IMG/VR virus record: IMGVR_UViG_3300009168_000102
Coordinates: 1 to 25,195 of that record
DNA: 25,195 nucleotides
Reading direction: 5' to 3' (one strand)
From: a virus
Shown piece by piece: positions 495 through 23,281 of this stretch (position 1 is the stretch's first letter; every line of letters begins with the position of its first letter). A program made the translations under genes and the position numbers. The notes beneath the pieces are model-generated. The model saw nothing but the letters and a program-made list of their open reading frames with translations. It was not told the origin of the DNA and made no database searches.

Positions 495-2098
495 TTTTGA
501 CGGTGCCCGTGGATGCGGTGCTGTATCCCACACTGGGGCCGCAAGTCTGCGATTTCGTCGAACAGAATCTCGTGTTCGGCCCGGGCGATCTCCGCGGGCA
601 GCCGGTGAAGCTCGACGACGAGAAAGCCGCGCTGATTTACCGCATGTATGAAGTGTTCCCGCAGCGGCACGATCTCGCGGGGCGGCGCCGCTTCAAGCGG
701 GTCGGGCTCTCGCTGCGCAAAGGGCTCGCGAAGACGGAACTCGCCGCGTGGCTCGCCGCGTGCGAGCTGCATCCGGAGGCGCCGGTGCGCTGCGTCGGCT
801 GGACGCCGGCGGGCGAACCGATCGGCGGGCCGGTGACCGATCCCTATATTCCGCTGATTGCCTACACCGAAGAGCAATCGGACGATCTCGCGTATACGGC
901 GTTGCGGGTGATTCTCGAATTGAGCACGCTGCGGGATGACTTCGACATCGGCCTCGAGCGGATTCTCCGCAAGAAGGGCGGCGGAAAGGCCGTGGCCCTC
1001 GCCGCGGCGCCGGATGCGCGCGACGGCGCCCGCACGACGTTTCAACACTTCGACGAAACACATCGCTTTACGTCGCGCCGGCTGCAGCGGGCGCATCGCA
1101 CGATGCTCGCGAACATTCCGAAGCGGCGGGCGGCGGACGCCTGGACGCTCGAAACGACGACGGCGCCGGAGCCGGGGATGGGATCCGTCGCGGAGGCGAC
1201 GATGGATTATGCGCGGGCCGTGCAGGTGGGGCTCGTCACCGATTCACGGCTGTTCTATTTTCACCGCGACGCCTCCGACGGGCACGATCTCACGACGCCG
1301 GAGGGCTTAAAGGCGGCGATTGTCGAGGCGTCGGGATCGGCGGCGGCCTGGTCGGATCTCGACGCGATCGCGGGCGAATGGGCGGATCCCCGCGCCGATC
1401 GCGCGTACCTCGAGCGGGTCTGGCTGAATCGGCTCGTGAAAGGCGGGACGCAAGCCTTCGACGTGCAGCGGTGGGACGAACTGAAGCAGCCGAACCCTGT
1501 GCAGCCCGGGGATGTGATTACGCTCGGCTTTGACGGCGCCATGTTCCACGATGCGACGGGCCTGGTGGCGACGCACGTCGAGACAGGCTTTCAATGGGTG
1601 CCGGGCGTGTGGGAATGTCCGCCGGGCCGCACGGACTGGCAAGTGCCGGTCGTCGAGGTCGATGCGATCGTGCGCGACTTGTTTAAGACCTACGAGGTGA
1701 GTCGGCTGTACGCGGATCCGCCGTACTGGCAATCGTGGATCGCGCAATGGGCAGGTGATCCGGCCTTGGGGCCAGAGAAAGTCCTGCAGTGGTGGACGAA
1801 TCGCCGTAAACCGATGACGTATGCGTTGAAGAATTTCGAGACGGCGATTAAAAGCGCGGATCTGTCGCACGATGGCGATGCGCGCTTACGTCGGCATCTC
1901 GCGAACAGTCGGCGCAAAGATTTGCCCGAACGTGACGAGCAAGATCAGGCCCTCTGGCTGATTCAGAAAGAGCGATCGGATTCGTTCGAGAAGATTGATT
2001 TGGCGATGGCGGCGGTGCTCAGTTGGGAAGCGCGGACGGATGCCCTCGGGGCGGGCGCGCTGTCGGGCCCCGAGTATTCCGTGGTGGTACTGCGATGA
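491..2098 (+). CDS. terL: Terminase large subunit (packaging ATPase/nuclease)
   Basis: 535 aa, a normal length for TerL. It would pump DNA into the prohead and cut it. The N-terminal ATPase has a Walker-A-like loop at residues 74-83 (SLRKGLAKTE, K81/T82), a variant seen in many siphovirus terminases, and a Walker B/catalytic Glu motif FDETH at 187-191. The C-terminal nuclease (RNase H fold) shows expected acidic residues at GFDGA (D348) and YADP (D409), followed by a conserved-looking basic stretch (RLRRHLANSRRK). The start overlaps the stop of the small subunit and the stop overlaps the next start (ATGA at 2095). Confidence 0.92.
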   Translation: MILTVPVDAVLYPTLGPQVCDFVEQNLVFGPGDLRGQPVKLDDEKAALIYRMYEVFPQRHDLAGRRRFKRVGLSLRKGLAKTELAAWLAACELHPEAPVRCVGWTPAGEPIGGPVTDPYIPLIAYTEEQSDDLAYTALRVILELSTLRDDFDIGLERILRKKGGGKAVALAAAPDARDGARTTFQHFDETHRFTSRRLQRAHRTMLANIPKRRAADAWTLETTTAPEPGMGSVAEATMDYARAVQVGLVTDSRLFYFHRDASDGHDLTTPEGLKAAIVEASGSAAAWSDLDAIAGEWADPRADRAYLERVWLNRLVKGGTQAFDVQRWDELKQPNPVQPGDVITLGFDGAMFHDATGLVATHVETGFQWVPGVWECPPGRTDWQVPVVEVDAIVRDLFKTYEVSRLYADPPYWQSWIAQWAGDPALGPEKVLQWWTNRRKPMTYALKNFETAIKSADLSHDGDARLRRHLANSRRKDLPERDEQDQALWLIQKERSDSFEKIDLAMAAVLSWEARTDALGAGALSGPEYSVVVLR

Positions 2099-14444: not shown

Positions 14445-15146
14445 ATAGGCACACCGCGCGCGGAGTTGCCGTTCATCTAACGGCAAGGTCGTTAGTAAAT
14501 GGCGAAGCAAGAAGACGACGAGATGCGCCCGCGCGGCGAGATCGGCATAAGCTGGGTCGGCCATCAGTCTCGACCATTCCAGCTTCGCGAGATGGGCACG
14601 GCCCGCGAGTTGATCTTCCGCCTGTAGAAGCTGTCGGACGTCCGGGGTATACGGCAGCCGTTTCCCGTCGAGGGTGACGGTCCACGGCGCCACAGGGCCA
14701 GGGGCATAGCGTCCAGCGGTATCACGAACGAGCGATCCTCCCGTCTTCGATCCCTTTCTCTGTAGACGTTGATCAAAGACTTGTCCCATCCACCGGTGAA
14801 CGATCACCGGTAGATCGGGCGATGTTAGCTTCCGAGTCGTGGTTCTGAGGCTAACATCGCCGCCCCGCCCCCGCTGGACGTAAGTTCTAGCTAACGCCTT
14901 GTGACGCAAATACCACGCCTCGAGATATCCCACCATGTAGGGATCGAGTCGGGGTACGAGCCGTTCCACAATCTGATCTCGTGTGAGCGGTTCGCCGGCA
15001 TCGTAGAGCACGTCATAGACCCGCAAAACGAGCTGCGAGGTGCCATCGGCGGATCCATTCCGACGCTTCCAGATACGCCGATCGGATGAGGCGGCCGCGG
15101 CGCTGACCGCCTCATCCGAGAGGGGTTTAGCTGCGCTGAGTGGCAT
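14364..15146 (-). CDS. Unknown protein, possible winged helix, second gene of ParB-like operon
   Basis: 260 aa from ATG 15146. ATGs at 15161 and 15212 (282 aa) are in frame but overlap the ParB-like gene more, and none has a clear ribosome site. Near residues 38-65 a segment LVLRVYDVLYDAGEPLTRDQ followed by IVERLVPRL looks like a winged-helix DNA-binding domain. The rest is helical and basic, without a recognised family (VIVHRWMGQVFDQRLQRKGS; LAARAHLVVFLLRHLLTTLP). Leftward, directly downstream of the ParB-like gene, it is likely its partner. Partition, replication control or lysogenic regulation are possible; none is shown. Confidence 0.62.
   Translation of the reverse strand: MPLSAAKPLSDEAVSAAAASSDRRIWKRRNGSADGTSQLVLRVYDVLYDAGEPLTRDQIVERLVPRLDPYMVGYLEAWYLRHKALARTYVQRGRGGDVSLRTTTRKLTSPDLPVIVHRWMGQVFDQRLQRKGSKTGGSLVRDTAGRYAPGPVAPWTVTLDGKRLPYTPDVRQLLQAEDQLAGRAHLAKLEWSRLMADPAYADLAARAHLVVFLLRHLLTTLPLDERQLRARCAYLLKLTDTPTIKRLIFEAAVKDLLALL
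15082..15119. repeat. 13-bp perfect inverted repeat at the ParB-like/partner junction
   Basis: Arms 15082-15094 and 15107-15119 (TCGGATGAGGCGG and its exact complement) are separated by 12 bases. The leftward transcript reaches it 7 nt after the ParB-like stop codon, inside the 5' coding region of the second gene. No T-run follows, so it is not a standard terminator. It could be an RNA hairpin that tunes expression of the second gene, or an operator-like binding site. Confidence 0.6.
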
Positions 15147-16116
15147 AGACGGCGACGACATTGGTTGCGAGGCTGTTGAGTTGTTGCCAGAGTTGCGCCG
15201 CGTTGGCGTCATCCGGGATGACCAATTCCGTCGGGAGGATCCCTTCTGTCAACTCCAACAACGCCTTCACCTGGCTGAGGGCCTTCTTCGCCTTGCTCTG
15301 ATTCGCCGGTTTCCGTACGGGCGGCGGCCCGGTCACCGGTCCCCACTTCGTTTCGGTGTTCTGAATCACCGCCAGCGCATCGGCATCCGAGCGCGTCTTT
15401 TCCACGTCATTTACCAGGCGTGACACATCCTTCATCGCCGGATTGGCCCGATGCACGAGGGCGATGGCCGCCTTCAACGGTTCATCATGACTGATGCCCG
15501 CCAGCACGCGCGCCACGGCTTTTGGTAGACGGACCTTACTCAACCCAATCCGATCCGCGGATTCCCGGAACAAGCGATCACGCCGCACGTTGCGGACATG
15601 CGAGACCGACCGGCCGAGTGTCCGTGCGATCGCCTCGTCGGCGTAGCCTTCATCCATCATCGCTTCGGCGGCGATGATGATTTCGTCATCCGCCAGGCGA
15701 TCGCCCCCTAATTGATTCAGGGCGGCCCCGATCATTTTGGCGATTCCCAGATGCGGGAACTTCACCTTGTAGGTGGGAAAGGTTTTCAACTTCAGGATAC
15801 GCGCCGCGGCCAGGCGGGCATTTCCATCAATCAGCCGACCATCCGTGCTGACGACAATTGGAGGAAACACCGCCCCATGATTCATGTGCGTGGCATATTG
15901 ATCGACGGTGCCTTTGGGGGCGCGATGCGCTTCACTTCGAATCTGCGTCGTCTCTTCGACCTTGACGCGGGCGAGTGGAAAGGCCGCATCCAATTCAAAG
16001 GGCAGCTGCCACTCATTCAGTAACCCTTCCACCCGTGTGTCCCGGTTCACCGCCACGGTGTCCTCCTCCACGTCCGCGACCCCTAAGGGCACGTCAACAA
16101 CAGCCGCGTCTCGCAT
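15127..16116 (-). CDS. ParB/Spo0J-like DNA-binding protein
   Basis: 329 aa. The ATG at 16116 is chosen over an upstream GTG (16143) because AGGAGG lies about 10 nt before it and the GTG falls inside the promoter. Residues 84-108 carry the ParB N-terminal motif (PPIVVSTDGRLIDGNARLAA). Residues 158-180 form a helix-turn-helix (DEAIARTLGRSVSHVRNVRR). The canonical GERR box of chromosomal ParB is replaced by GNAR, so it is a divergent plasmid/phage type. A Lys-rich linker and helical C-terminus follow. It could maintain the phage as a plasmid, act as a lysogeny regulator, or do both; inferred from domain and location beside attP. Confidence 0.8.
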   Translation of the reverse strand: MRDAAVVDVPLGVADVEEDTVAVNRDTRVEGLLNEWQLPFELDAAFPLARVKVEETTQIRSEAHRAPKGTVDQYATHMNHGAVFPPIVVSTDGRLIDGNARLAAARILKLKTFPTYKVKFPHLGIAKMIGAALNQLGGDRLADDEIIIAAEAMMDEGYADEAIARTLGRSVSHVRNVRRDRLFRESADRIGLSKVRLPKAVARVLAGISHDEPLKAAIALVHRANPAMKDVSRLVNDVEKTRSDADALAVIQNTETKWGPVTGPPPVRKPANQSKAKKALSQVKALLELTEGILPTELVIPDDANAAQLWQQLNSLATNVVAVYATQRS

Positions 16117-16141
16117 ATACAGTAATCCTCCTACGCGAGAC

Positions 16142-16169
16142 ACTATAGGGTGTTAATGCACTGTGTCAA
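16142..16169 (-). promoter_or_regulatory. Strong sigma70-like promoter for the ParB-like operon
   Basis: On the minus strand: TTGACA (16169-16164), 16-nt spacer, TATAGT (16147-16142). The predicted start lies near 16135, right at the AGGAGG ribosome site, so the leader is only about 20 nt. Near-consensus boxes suggest steady expression, as expected of a gene active in lysogeny. Confidence 0.72.
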
Positions 16170-16317: not shown

Positions 16318-16340
16318 TGTGTCTGCGCGTTGTGTCTGCG
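16318..16340 (+). repeat. Paired repeat P1: two TGTGTCTGCG copies, 13-bp period
   Basis: Copies at 16318-16327 and 16331-16340, separated by 3 bases (cgt). The same two-copy unit occurs again at 16537 and, inverted, at 18149. P1 lies about 45 bp left of the tRNA-derived core, as expected of an integrase arm-type site. Binding by the ParB-like protein is an alternative. Confidence 0.75.
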
Positions 16341-16384
16341 TGTGAAATTCGCCCAATAATAATCGGCCCGATCGTGACGGGGGA

Positions 16385-16434
16385 CCGGTTTCCTAAACCG
16401 GGGGTCGCAGGTTCGAGACCTGCCGGGCGCACCA
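16385..16434 (+). other. attP: attP core: 3' half of tRNA-Arg(CCT)
   Basis: The bases from 16385 fold as the 3' part of a tRNA: anticodon stem CCGGT/ACCGG with loop TTCCTAA (anticodon CCT, 16392-16394), 5-nt variable region, T arm GCAGG-TTCGAGA-CCTGC (16407-16423), acceptor 3' strand CGGGCGC, then A and CCA (16432-16434). The matching 5' acceptor strand (GCGCCCG) and D arm are absent upstream. This is therefore not a functional tRNA gene but the identity block a phage carries to rebuild the host gene on integration. It is next to the integrase and flanked by phage genes on both sides, so it is an intact attP rather than attL or attR. Confidence 0.82.
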
Positions 16435-16461
16435 ATCAAATCAACACGTTACAGCCAAAAT

Positions 16462-16476
16462 AGCCCTTCAGGGGCT
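16462..16476 (-). terminator. Weak hairpin between integrase and attP core
   Basis: AGCCC/GGGCT stem (16462-16466, 16472-16476) with a 5-nt loop. Read leftward it is followed by ATTTTGG, a poor T-run. It could end the integrase transcript, or be a remnant of the host tRNA terminator carried in attP. The rest of 16170-16600 holds no supportable gene. Confidence 0.3.
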
Positions 16477-16536
16477 CAAAACACCCTCCCCAAAAATGCA
16501 CGTTTTTCGTTGATATTTTACGATCGCCCTATCGAG

Positions 16537-16559
16537 TGTGTCTGCGAAGTGTGTCTGCG
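16537..16559 (+). repeat. Paired repeat P2: two TGTGTCTGCG copies, 13-bp period
   Basis: Copies at 16537-16546 and 16550-16559 with a 3-base spacer (aag), same orientation as P1. P2 lies about 100 bp right of the tRNA-derived core and 41 bp beyond the integrase stop. P1 and P2 thus bracket the core, the expected geometry of phage arm-type integrase sites. Confidence 0.75.
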
Positions 16560-16600: not shown

Positions 16601-17932
16601 TTAGGAACGACGGGATCGACGGGGGGAAGCCTGGGCCTTATCGACGACGTGAAAGTCGCGGGGCGGGGCCGTGGCGGCCTCAGGTGCCCAGACCGCGCGC
16701 ATGTCCGCGATCGCTTTCGACACGAGCTCGGGGACAGCGCCTTTCGTGTAGCGCTGGGTCGTTTTGATATCACGGTGCTGCGCGAGTTCCTGCACCGCAC
16801 GCAGGTTGCCGGAGCGGCGGAGGGCTTCCGTTAAGAAGCTGTGTCGCACGTCATAGGGCCGGCAGTTCTCGGGCACGCAGTTCTCGAACTGCTCGAGCAT
16901 GGTGCGATCGACGTCGGTGGCGGTCGGCGCCTGTGCCGCGGCTTCAATCTCCGCGCGCACGCGCGCCACGGCTTTGATCCACGACTTGCGCATCGAGGAT
17001 CGCGAGAAGCGTCGGCGCCACAAGTGCGCCGCGTCGTAGTCGCGCAACGCGGCGATCGCCTGGGGCAGCGCATCCGTCCACATGCCCGGCGAGCCCTTGC
17101 CCTTCTTCCGCGGCGGTAAAAAGATCCGGCCTTGATCGAAGTTCACATGTCGACGTTCGAGCCGCGCGAGCGAGGCGTGCGCCAGGCCGGTCCACGCCAT
17201 CACGGTCAGGCGGATCTTAGTTTCACTGTAGGCCGTCCGGGTGCCGCCTTTTTCGGCGCGACCGTGATCGGGGAGCGCGGCGAGAATCCGCAACACGATC
17301 GGCATGTCGATCCCGCGGGCCTCGAGCTCGCGCGGTGGGACGTTCTTAATCAACGCGGTCGGCACGATCACGTCGTCGCTCGTCGTCGATCGCCGCTTCG
17401 CGCGCTCGCGCTCGAGCTCGACGCGGAGCACATCGCCCAGCACGCGCTTCCGTGAGTTAATCGCGGAGGGCGACACGCCCGCGGCGATCCAGGCTTTGAT
17501 CTGCGTTTTGATCGCGAGCTGCGGCACATGGATCGCCGGATACGCGCCAACGGGGGAGCGCTGCCAGTGGGGCAGGAGATATTTGTAATCTTCGTTCTTG
17601 CGTGTGGGATCGTGCGGCGTGACGGGATGCTCTTCGAGGAACCGCACGATCGCCGCGGTAACGCTACCTGGTGCGCCGAGTGTGTCGCCGCCGATGCGGC
17701 CGGTGCGCAAATCTTCAACGAGCTGCGCGTAGCGCTCGACGAGCTCGCGGTTGTGTCGGGTGGAGTAGGGCACGCCGGCGCCATCCACGAGCGCGAAACG
17801 ATCGCGGGCTTCGCGAAAGGTGCCTGCTCGCTTCGATCCGATGCGCGCCAGGACCGTGATTCCGTGGGCATCGGCATAACAGCCCTTCGCAATCTTCACG
17901 GTTACGCGGCGCCGGGCGGTCGTTGCACACAT
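16601..17932 (-). CDS. int: Tyrosine recombinase (integrase)
   Basis: 443 aa. It would recombine attP with the host tRNA-Arg gene. The C-terminal catalytic domain shows RPYDVRHSF (R363, H364), QELAQHRDIKTTQRYTKG (H386, nucleophile Y395) and a beta-hairpin Lys region (RKKGKG, 275-280). At the position of the first catalytic Arg (usually TGLRxSEL) the sequence is TGLAHASL (248-255), with Ala at 251, a notable deviation. Residues 90-175 fit a core-binding SAM-like domain; the N-terminus would bind arm sites. ATG 17932 has no strong ribosome site. It is leftward, divergent from the HTH gene at 18222, and ends next to attP. Confidence 0.9.
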   Translation of the reverse strand: MCATTARRRVTVKIAKGCYADAHGITVLARIGSKRAGTFREARDRFALVDGAGVPYSTRHNRELVERYAQLVEDLRTGRIGGDTLGAPGSVTAAIVRFLEEHPVTPHDPTRKNEDYKYLLPHWQRSPVGAYPAIHVPQLAIKTQIKAWIAAGVSPSAINSRKRVLGDVLRVELERERAKRRSTTSDDVIVPTALIKNVPPRELEARGIDMPIVLRILAALPDHGRAEKGGTRTAYSETKIRLTVMAWTGLAHASLARLERRHVNFDQGRIFLPPRKKGKGSPGMWTDALPQAIAALRDYDAAHLWRRRFSRSSMRKSWIKAVARVRAEIEAAAQAPTATDVDRTMLEQFENCVPENCRPYDVRHSFLTEALRRSGNLRAVQELAQHRDIKTTQRYTKGAVPELVSKAIADMRAVWAPEAATAPPRDFHVVDKAQASPRRSRRS

Positions 17933-17970
17933 CCGTCGTGCATTTTAGTTAAAAACTCGTCGCTTTGTCG

Positions 17971-17999
17971 TTGACGCATCGCAACGAGGCGAGTATAAT
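17971..17999 (+). promoter_or_regulatory. Strong rightward sigma70-like promoter (early operon)
   Basis: TTGACG (17971-17976), 17-nt spacer, TATAAT (17994-17999): near-consensus boxes with ideal spacing. An imperfect palindrome (CGTTGaCG-cat-CGCAACG, 17969-17986) covers the -35 box and spacer and may be an operator. Transcription would start near 18006 and run into the HTH gene at 18222 and the replication/recombination genes. Confidence 0.75.
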
Positions 18000-18061: not shown

Positions 18062-18109
18062 AGAGTATTCCGGATCCTTAGTCTCCCAGCTTAGGAAACC
18101 GGATACTCT
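18062..18109 (+). promoter_or_regulatory. Leader hairpin 2
   Basis: AGAGTATTCCGG (18062-18073) pairs with CCGGATACTCT (18099-18109), 11 pairs with one bulged T, around a 25-nt loop. It is part of the roughly 215-nt leader before the HTH gene. The leader has no supportable coding frame. Confidence 0.45.
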
Positions 18110-18148
18110 CGGAAGTAACGTCTTGCGCGATAAGGTGTTGCGTCCCCA

Positions 18149-18171
18149 CGCAGACACATAACGCAGACACA
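18149..18171 (-). repeat. Paired repeat P3: inverted copy of the TGTGTCTGCG pair
   Basis: Reverse-complement copies (CGCAGACACA) at 18149-18158 and 18162-18171, again with a 3-base spacer. It is the third exact instance of the unit found on both sides of attP, but in inverse orientation and about 1.7 kb away, just upstream of the HTH/excisionase-like gene. This suggests that the protein binding the att arms also controls this leader. Confidence 0.72.
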
Positions 18172-18221: not shown

Positions 18222-18503
18222 ATGGCTCACGCGACGTCGATCACGAATCTGGAAACTCTGCGCATCTTTGTCGACCTCGAAACAGTCGCGGATATCTATC
18301 ACCTGAGTGTGAAAACCCTTCGCCGGAAGTGCTCGGAGGGATCGTTCTATCCCCCGCCTGCTCGGAAGTATCCCTATCTCTGGCGACGCGATGACATCCT
18401 GCGCGATATCAACGGGCCAACAAAGCGCCTGGTCAAACGCGCGCACGGCTTCGCGGCCGTGAAAGCGCGGCGTCTTCGCGAGGACAAGGACGTGAGTGCG
18501 TAA
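18222..18503 (+). CDS. Small HTH protein, excisionase-like
   Basis: 93 aa. Residues about 15-70 (FVDLETVADIYHLSVKTLRR, then PYLWRRDDILRDI) form the MerR/excisionase-type helix-turn-helix with wing, as in phage Xis and DUF-type HTH_17 proteins. It is the first gene of the rightward operon, divergent from integrase, with the P3 repeat 50 bp upstream. Those features fit a recombination directionality factor or an early regulator. A G-rich ribosome site (GGGGGTG) precedes ATG 18222. Confidence 0.72.
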   Translation: MAHATSITNLETLRIFVDLETVADIYHLSVKTLRRKCSEGSFYPPPARKYPYLWRRDDILRDINGPTKRLVKRAHGFAAVKARRLREDKDVSA

Positions 18504-22345: not shown

Positions 22346-23281
22346 ATGTCGAAGAGCACAATCTCCACCTTCCAACTGTTTGAGCGGTTCCCCGATAAGG
22401 AATCCGCCCGCGTTTATTTCGAGCAGCGGCGTTGGCCGAACGGTGTCGTTTGCCCGGTCTGCAAGAGCGACGGGCGGATCACTGTCAGGAAGGGCGGTTA
22501 TTACCGCTGTAACGCCTGTGCTGAGGACTTCACCGTCCGGACGGGCACGGTCATGGAGCGGAGTCACATCCCGCTGCACAAGTGGCTGTATGCGATGTAT
22601 CTGCTCGTCACGGCCCGTAAGGGGATCTCTAGTCTGCAACTGTCGAAGCAAATAGGCGTTACACAGAAAACCGCGTGGTTCCTGCTGCACCGCCTTCGCG
22701 AAGCCTGTGGCGGGCGCAACCTGCGGAAACTCAAGGGCATCATCGAAATTGACGAGTGCTTCGTCGGCGGGTTGGAGGGCAACAAGCACGCGAACAAGAA
22801 GCTTCACGCCGGACGCGGGCCAGTTGGCAAGACGGCCGTTTTGGGGATGAAGGAACGCGGCGGCCGGGTGCAGGCTCGCCCATCGGGTCAGATGACCTTC
22901 GACGAAATCCACGGCGAGATTCACGCTAACGTCGAAGCTGGATCGCAACTCTACACCGACGACAGCGCCATCTTCGAGGGTCTGGACGGGTTGTTCTTCC
23001 GGCACGACACGATCAACCACAGCATCGGGGAATACGCCCGTGGCGCAGCGCACACGAACAGCGTCGAAAGCGTGTGGGCTGTTCTGAAACGCGGCATCAT
23101 CGGCGTCTACCATCACGCCAGCCCGAAGCATCTTCCACGCTATATGGACGAGTTCACCTTCCGCCTGAACGAAGGCAACTGTAAGCGCCAGACGCTGAAT
23201 CGGCTGGACAGCTTCGTGGACGGTATGGCTAATAAGAGACTGACTTATACGGACTTGATCGCGAAGCCGGAGGGTAACTAG
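22346..23281 (+). CDS. tnp: IS1595-family (ISXO2-like) DDE transposase
   Basis: 311 aa, normal for the family. It has an N-terminal helical segment, then a zinc ribbon with C36, C39, C55 and C58 (CPVC...CNAC) and an HTH (LQLSKQIGVTQKTAWFLLHR, 98-117). The catalytic domain has first Asp in IEIDECFVGG (D136), second Asp in LYTDDSAIF (D205) and final Glu in HTNSVESVWAVLK (E241). No frame damage is visible, so it should be active. The first passenger ATG directly follows its TAG stop. Confidence 0.93.
   Translation: MSKSTISTFQLFERFPDKESARVYFEQRRWPNGVVCPVCKSDGRITVRKGGYYRCNACAEDFTVRTGTVMERSHIPLHKWLYAMYLLVTARKGISSLQLSKQIGVTQKTAWFLLHRLREACGGRNLRKLKGIIEIDECFVGGLEGNKHANKKLHAGRGPVGKTAVLGMKERGGRVQARPSGQMTFDEIHGEIHANVEAGSQLYTDDSAIFEGLDGLFFRHDTINHSIGEYARGAAHTNSVESVWAVLKRGIIGVYHHASPKHLPRYMDEFTFRLNEGNCKRQTLNRLDSFVDGMANKRLTYTDLIAKPEGN

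Follow-up and report, generated by a model that had tools for sequence, protein, structure and literature searches.

In phage lambda, the core of the attachment site lies between a P and a P' arm with repeated arm-type sites, int is oriented toward attP, and xis is found nearby. A direct influence of an attachment site on integrase expression is known from KplE1 intS, where the integrase represses int in those layouts (STI and OD) in which attL overlaps the promoter (Panis et al. 2010, PMC2951348). For integrase genes in the convergent (OC) layout, no self-regulation was predicted, and none was found in two cases (Panis et al. 2010, PMC2951348). A search of open-access papers for integrase sites in the interval from int to xis yielded KplE1-type cases only.

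The DNA analysed here (referred to as the window) comprises 25,195 nucleotides, positions 1 to 25,195 of the phage record IMGVR_UViG_3300009168_000102, which stems from a soil virus. Its segment 16318-16559 is a lambda-type attP of a temperate phage and as an attP is ordinary (Table 1): like lambda, it has a core and two arms with repeated sites, an int gene pointing toward it and a xis-like gene nearby; its P' arm also contains a match to the IHF consensus. Unlike in lambda, the arm sites are exact pairs with a period of 12-13 bp and fixed offsets, int and the xis-like gene are divergent, and a second arm pair with a core lies between them. With this second site, the phage has more than an ordinary attP, since half of it is present again as a displaced copy.

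Table 1. Elements of the attP, the second site and the neighbouring genes in the window
Feature	Position	Strand	Remarks
P-arm pair, TGTGTCTGCG-N3-TGTGTCTGCG	16318..16340	+	both copies exact; -67/-54 from core; offset kept in relatives
attP core, anticodon stem-loop CCGGTTTCCTAAACCGG of tRNA-Arg(CCT)	16385..16401	+	sequence; matches tRNA of the likely host
3' half of tRNA-Arg(CCT), block identical to the likely host's gene	16385..16434	+	
IHF-consensus-like site AATCAACACGTTA, P' arm	16439..16451	+	consensus WATCAANNNNTTR; kept in L003-L006
P'-arm pair of putative arm-type sites	16537..16559	+	exact; offset +152/+165
Tyrosine integrase gene (int), 443 aa, convergent with tRNA half	16601..17932	-	PF00589 E=1.5e-10; PHROG 1; structure model
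Weak int promoter-like sequence, ACGACA-18-TAAAAT	17942..17971	-	9/12 consensus; conserved in L003
Promoter-like sequence toward xis-like gene, TTGACG-17-TATAAT	17971..17999	+	11/12 consensus
Second core, CCGGTTTCCTAAGCTGG	18086..18102	-	no more than one comparable match per shuffle (100 shuffles); conserved in L003
Third arm pair, TGTGTCTGCG-N3-TGTGTCTGCG	18149..18171	-	-69/-56 from second core
xis-like helix-turn-helix gene (93 aa), running divergently from int	18222..18503	+	weak: HTH_17 E=0.002, Exc E=0.043, PHROG 66 excisionase E=0.0047

An initial sequence-only reading had interpreted the segment as an attP with a tRNA core between two paired repeats, next to an integrase gene. Its four exact 10-bp copies are indeed present (16318-16327, 16331-16340, 16537-16546 and 16550-16559), separated within the pairs by 3-bp spacers that differ, and the adjoining gene is a PF00589 integrase gene. 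With up to three mismatches allowed, the window contains three matches to the pair pattern, as compared to none in 100 dinucleotide shuffles. The tRNA portion likewise is as described, a 3' half that consists of the anticodon arm (CCGGT-TTCCTAA-ACCGG) followed by the T arm, the acceptor and CCA; a complete tRNA was looked for and none was detected, the 5' half being absent. The 7-bp anticodon loop TTCCTAA is likely the crossover region. The attP interpretation gains support from the fact that a tRNA half serves as att core in about 40 relatives, and that an exact 42-bp segment of the tRNA is found in Acidobacteriota. On the P side, L004-L006 have an IHF-like site of which the window has a degenerate version; the window matches the consensus only in the P' arm. 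The annotated attP core of the Streptomyces rimosus actinophage RP3 (X80661) lies in the same kind of tRNA-Arg (loop CTCCTAA) and also has a short repeat pair upstream, but its arm sequence and period are different. On the P side of the attP, the window carries a ParB-like gene (15127-16143, minus strand) with a strong promoter-like sequence, TTGACA-16-TATAGT, at 16142-16169.

A profile search for related phages yielded 78 loci, approximately 60 of which were near enough for analysis. The tRNA 3' half found near int in about 40 of them belongs to Arg-CCT (in several sequences), Arg-TCT or Val-CAC. Of 37 distinct loci, 31 have a direct repeat of 7 bp, with a period of 12-14, that starts 61-70 bp ahead of the anticodon stem, with the P-arm pair staying near -67/-54. 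Position bins outside the two arm positions contain at most one locus each. P' pairs are found at +150 to +190 in relatives, many of which have an extra inverted single site near +90. The arm motif itself varies by integrase lineage (TGTGTCTGCG, TGTGTACCC, GCGTGGAA, GGGATGGCCCC, GGGGCGNCCCC, GGGGGAACCCC and others). A constant place combined with a changing sequence is what is expected of sites that are read by a diverging protein domain, and this supports the proposal, already made in the sequence-only reading, that the TGTGTCTGCG pairs are arm-type sites, with the N-terminal domain of the integrase as their putative reader. By eye, the core of L018 had been taken for tRNA-Gly(TCC), an assignment that was dropped since this loop, where it occurs in relatives, is called Arg(CCT) by ARAGORN.

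The predicted structure of the integrase is in keeping with such a role. The AlphaFold model shows four strands and a helix at the N-terminus, followed by core-binding and catalytic parts, and its structural matches include full-length lambda integrase; the modelled N-terminal sheet plus helix resembles what arm-binding domains have. The catalytic lysine K277, the second arginine R363 and the catalytic tyrosine Y395 are present in all 62 family members. The first catalytic arginine is missing: the window has TGLA (A251), whereas XerA and XerD have TG-x-R, and most members carry P, T, A or S at position 251, with R in only 3 of 62. An arginine two residues before the catalytic lysine, R275, is found in 59 of 62 members, and the three with R251 carry T275; these three form one clade and thus count as a single event. 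In addition, the first catalytic histidine is replaced by a tyrosine (PYDxRH, Y360 in 62 of 62). The arginine pattern is suggestive of a relocation of the catalytic arginine to R275, like in IntDes or CTnDOT integrases, of which CTnDOT is a proven case of a substitute arginine. The IntDes subgroup, whose description comes from Desulfovibrio alone, is of the arm-binding type and has a shifted first catalytic arginine as well as a tyrosine for the first histidine (Smyshlyaev et al. 2021, PMC8138268). The window integrase shares both catalytic traits of this description.

With respect to the integration target, the sequence-only reading had predicted a bacterial tRNA-Arg(CCT) gene whose 3' end matches the tRNA half, and such genes exist. 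The exact 46-bp tRNA segment occurs once in GTDB contigs, in the tRNA-Arg(CCT) gene of an Acidobacteria MAG, and the exact 42-bp segment (without CCA) is found in 6 of 193 genomes, all of them from the class of that MAG, which is itself included. Each of the six sites holds a tRNA-Arg(CCT) gene that ARAGORN identifies as complete. Since the exact segment is present in these six genomes, Acidobacteriota are the likely hosts. The integrase would recombine within the anticodon loop of tRNA-Arg(CCT), probably that of an acidobacterial gene, and the phage-borne 3' half would restore the gene that is split by the integration. Five of the Acidobacteriota sites with the exact segment were inspected, and these are empty: neither an integrated copy of the phage nor, by tblastn, an integrase relative was found beside them. 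Among 396 Acidobacteriota genomes, there was one, weaker, relative of the integrase, and a tblastn search of the phage collection with the window integrase gave no match. Two loci may contain traces of integrative elements. In the Acidobacteria MAG (L011), a partial tyrosine-integrase-like frame (1376-1699, minus strand) lies just upstream of tRNA-Arg(CCT) and perhaps is the trace of an older insertion. In L104 (genome G148), a tRNA-Val(CAC) gene is followed by an arm-like pair, GGTGGTGCTC-N2-GGTGGTGCTC, possibly reflecting an integrated element with a different integrase.

The sequence-only reading overlooked a third arm pair and a second core, both on the minus strand, within the 290 bp that separate int from the xis-like gene. 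The distance between arm pair and core agrees with that at the attP within 2 bp. A copy of the phage's own core upstream of int is present in eight records (the window, L003/L015, L018, L019, L034, L035, L036 and L038), with match scores of 12-15 as compared to control maxima of 8-10, and in every case it is located 142-182 bp before the int start codon and runs in the same direction as int. The arms of the second site lie at -69/-56 in the window, at -68/-55 in L003/L015, L019, L034 and L036, and at -66/-54 in L018, and the attP spacing of these copy-bearing phages is -67/-54 or -66/-53. The site consists of the arm pair and the core; the remainder of the P arm and of the tRNA half is absent, as is the P' arm. 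Between the window and L003, conservation is 91% for the pair and 100% for the core, against 56-57% for the flanks.

The second site follows the attP of its own phage. L018 has the arm GGGATGGCCCC and a different Arg-CCT core, and its second site repeats both; the second sites of the Val-CAC clade (L019, L034, L036 and L038), which has the arm GGGGCGNCCCC, likewise repeat their own arm motif and core. The correspondence extends to single arms, since L019, L034 and L036 have GGGGCGACCCC as the proximal arm of both sites and L038 has GGGGCGGCCCC, GGGGCGA having changed to GGGGCGG at its attP and its second site alike; with one mismatch allowed, the second site of L038 yields the proximal copy of the pair and not the other. 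The sequences, their spacing and the matched change with the attP are thus found in three lineages. In the integrase tree, the second site appears at three separate places, which requires at least three gains or losses. It is absent from L005, whose int runs away from the attP, and also from convergent relatives such as L004/L016, L020, L042 and L048. Weak second-core candidates in L060 and L032 were set aside, being near the control level and without arm pairs, and matches to the Val core plus flank in L111-L113, which came without an integrase match, were taken as chance. Judged by its sequence, the new element is a conserved second half-site that co-varies with the attP.

Inverted repeats flank the second core, GAGTAT..ATACTC in the window (18070-18115) and GGGTTTTTCGTT..AACGAAAAACCC in L034 (3765-3875), with an apparently compensatory change in L003. 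An RNA structure around the second core was rejected, as most folds were only about 1 sd better than shuffles (z approximately -1.2, one value positive). Regarding the neighbouring genes, a homologue of the xis-like gene adjoins int in L003 and L004. The start codon of the xis-like gene follows the arm pair of the second site after about 51 bp in the window and after about 40-50 bp in L003 and L018. Further downstream, the phage genome contains an IS1595-family transposase gene (22346-23281), for which no flanking inverted repeats of at least 14 bp were found.

What might such a site be for? We consider it probable that it is an integrase-binding control site for int, xis or both. The main rival to this is an invertible int cassette, in which the cores facing each other across int would let the integrase invert the int segment, such that each orientation has one full attP and one half site. 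In every phage with the copy, the two cores do lie in opposite orientation on either side of int; their 7-bp loops are the same, and their stems differ at one or two positions (window, L003, L018). However, all eight copy-bearing records share one arrangement, and pattern scans revealed no flipped record; furthermore, the stretch from arm to core is not the same at the two sites and remains site-specific from phage to phage, and a P' arm is lacking at the second site, so that we regard inversion as rather improbable. It also is unlikely that the repeats bind a protein other than the integrase, be it the xis-like protein or a repressor. Directionality factors can bind direct repeats, as reported for Apl of phage 186 (PMC7498355), and the third pair is just upstream of the xis-like gene, but the presence of pairs on both attP arms, their constant distance to the core and the inverted single site in many relatives are the pattern of integrase arm sites, and the copied core would be hard to account for. 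A functionless relic of a duplication or an old tandem integration, as the partial attP sequence and the many relatives without a copy might suggest, is a very improbable explanation of the third pair and the second core, because the second site always matches the attP of its own phage, across three lineages that differ in arm motif or tRNA core, because pair and core are better conserved than the flanks, and because the tRNA 3' half that an integration scar should contain is missing.

If the second site is a control site, the integrase would bind the displaced half-attP in addition to the attP and bridge arm and core there, as on the P side of the attP, thereby controlling the transcription of xis, int or both. 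Transcripts from the strong promoter-like sequence that faces the xis-like gene would pass the second site on their way into that gene, and integrase on arm and core would act as a roadblock or repressor on xis, close to the int promoter. The outcome would be a feedback for an int gene whose promoter is far from the attP. Integrase binding, repression rather than activation, and the choice of int or xis as the target are parts of this scheme that we infer from the sequence. Some observations speak against it. Convergent relatives exist without the copy, which thus is not essential; the site is upstream of the predicted int promoter and not on it, and the promoters are consensus matches only; also, the 7-bp loop is the same in the copy and the attP, which recombination needs, but regulation does not.

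The comparison to KplE1 intS is instructive in this regard. In both cases, an att-type sequence, predicted to be bound by integrase in the window, lies by the int promoter. Unlike intS, the int gene of the window is convergent, and the sequence near its promoter is a separate partial att copy and not a real attL; the attP itself is found where int ends (3'), with about 1.5 kb separating it from the int promoter.

The published view is that int genes convergent with the tRNA lack self-regulation, on account of the long distance from att to promoter. The phages described here appear to overcome this distance by copying part of att to a place between int and xis, and to have done so at three places in the tree. 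We lean slightly toward the more general idea that this phage family places a working half-attP between int and xis as an integrase sensor, which would be renewed with each change of target or arm specificity; the strongest version of this idea has a second core that would also be recombinogenic, such that int could flip. The arm motif, the tRNA core and the second site, which change together, constitute a natural series for how arm-binding domains choose their DNA, and such series would be useful for predicting the sites of new integrases.
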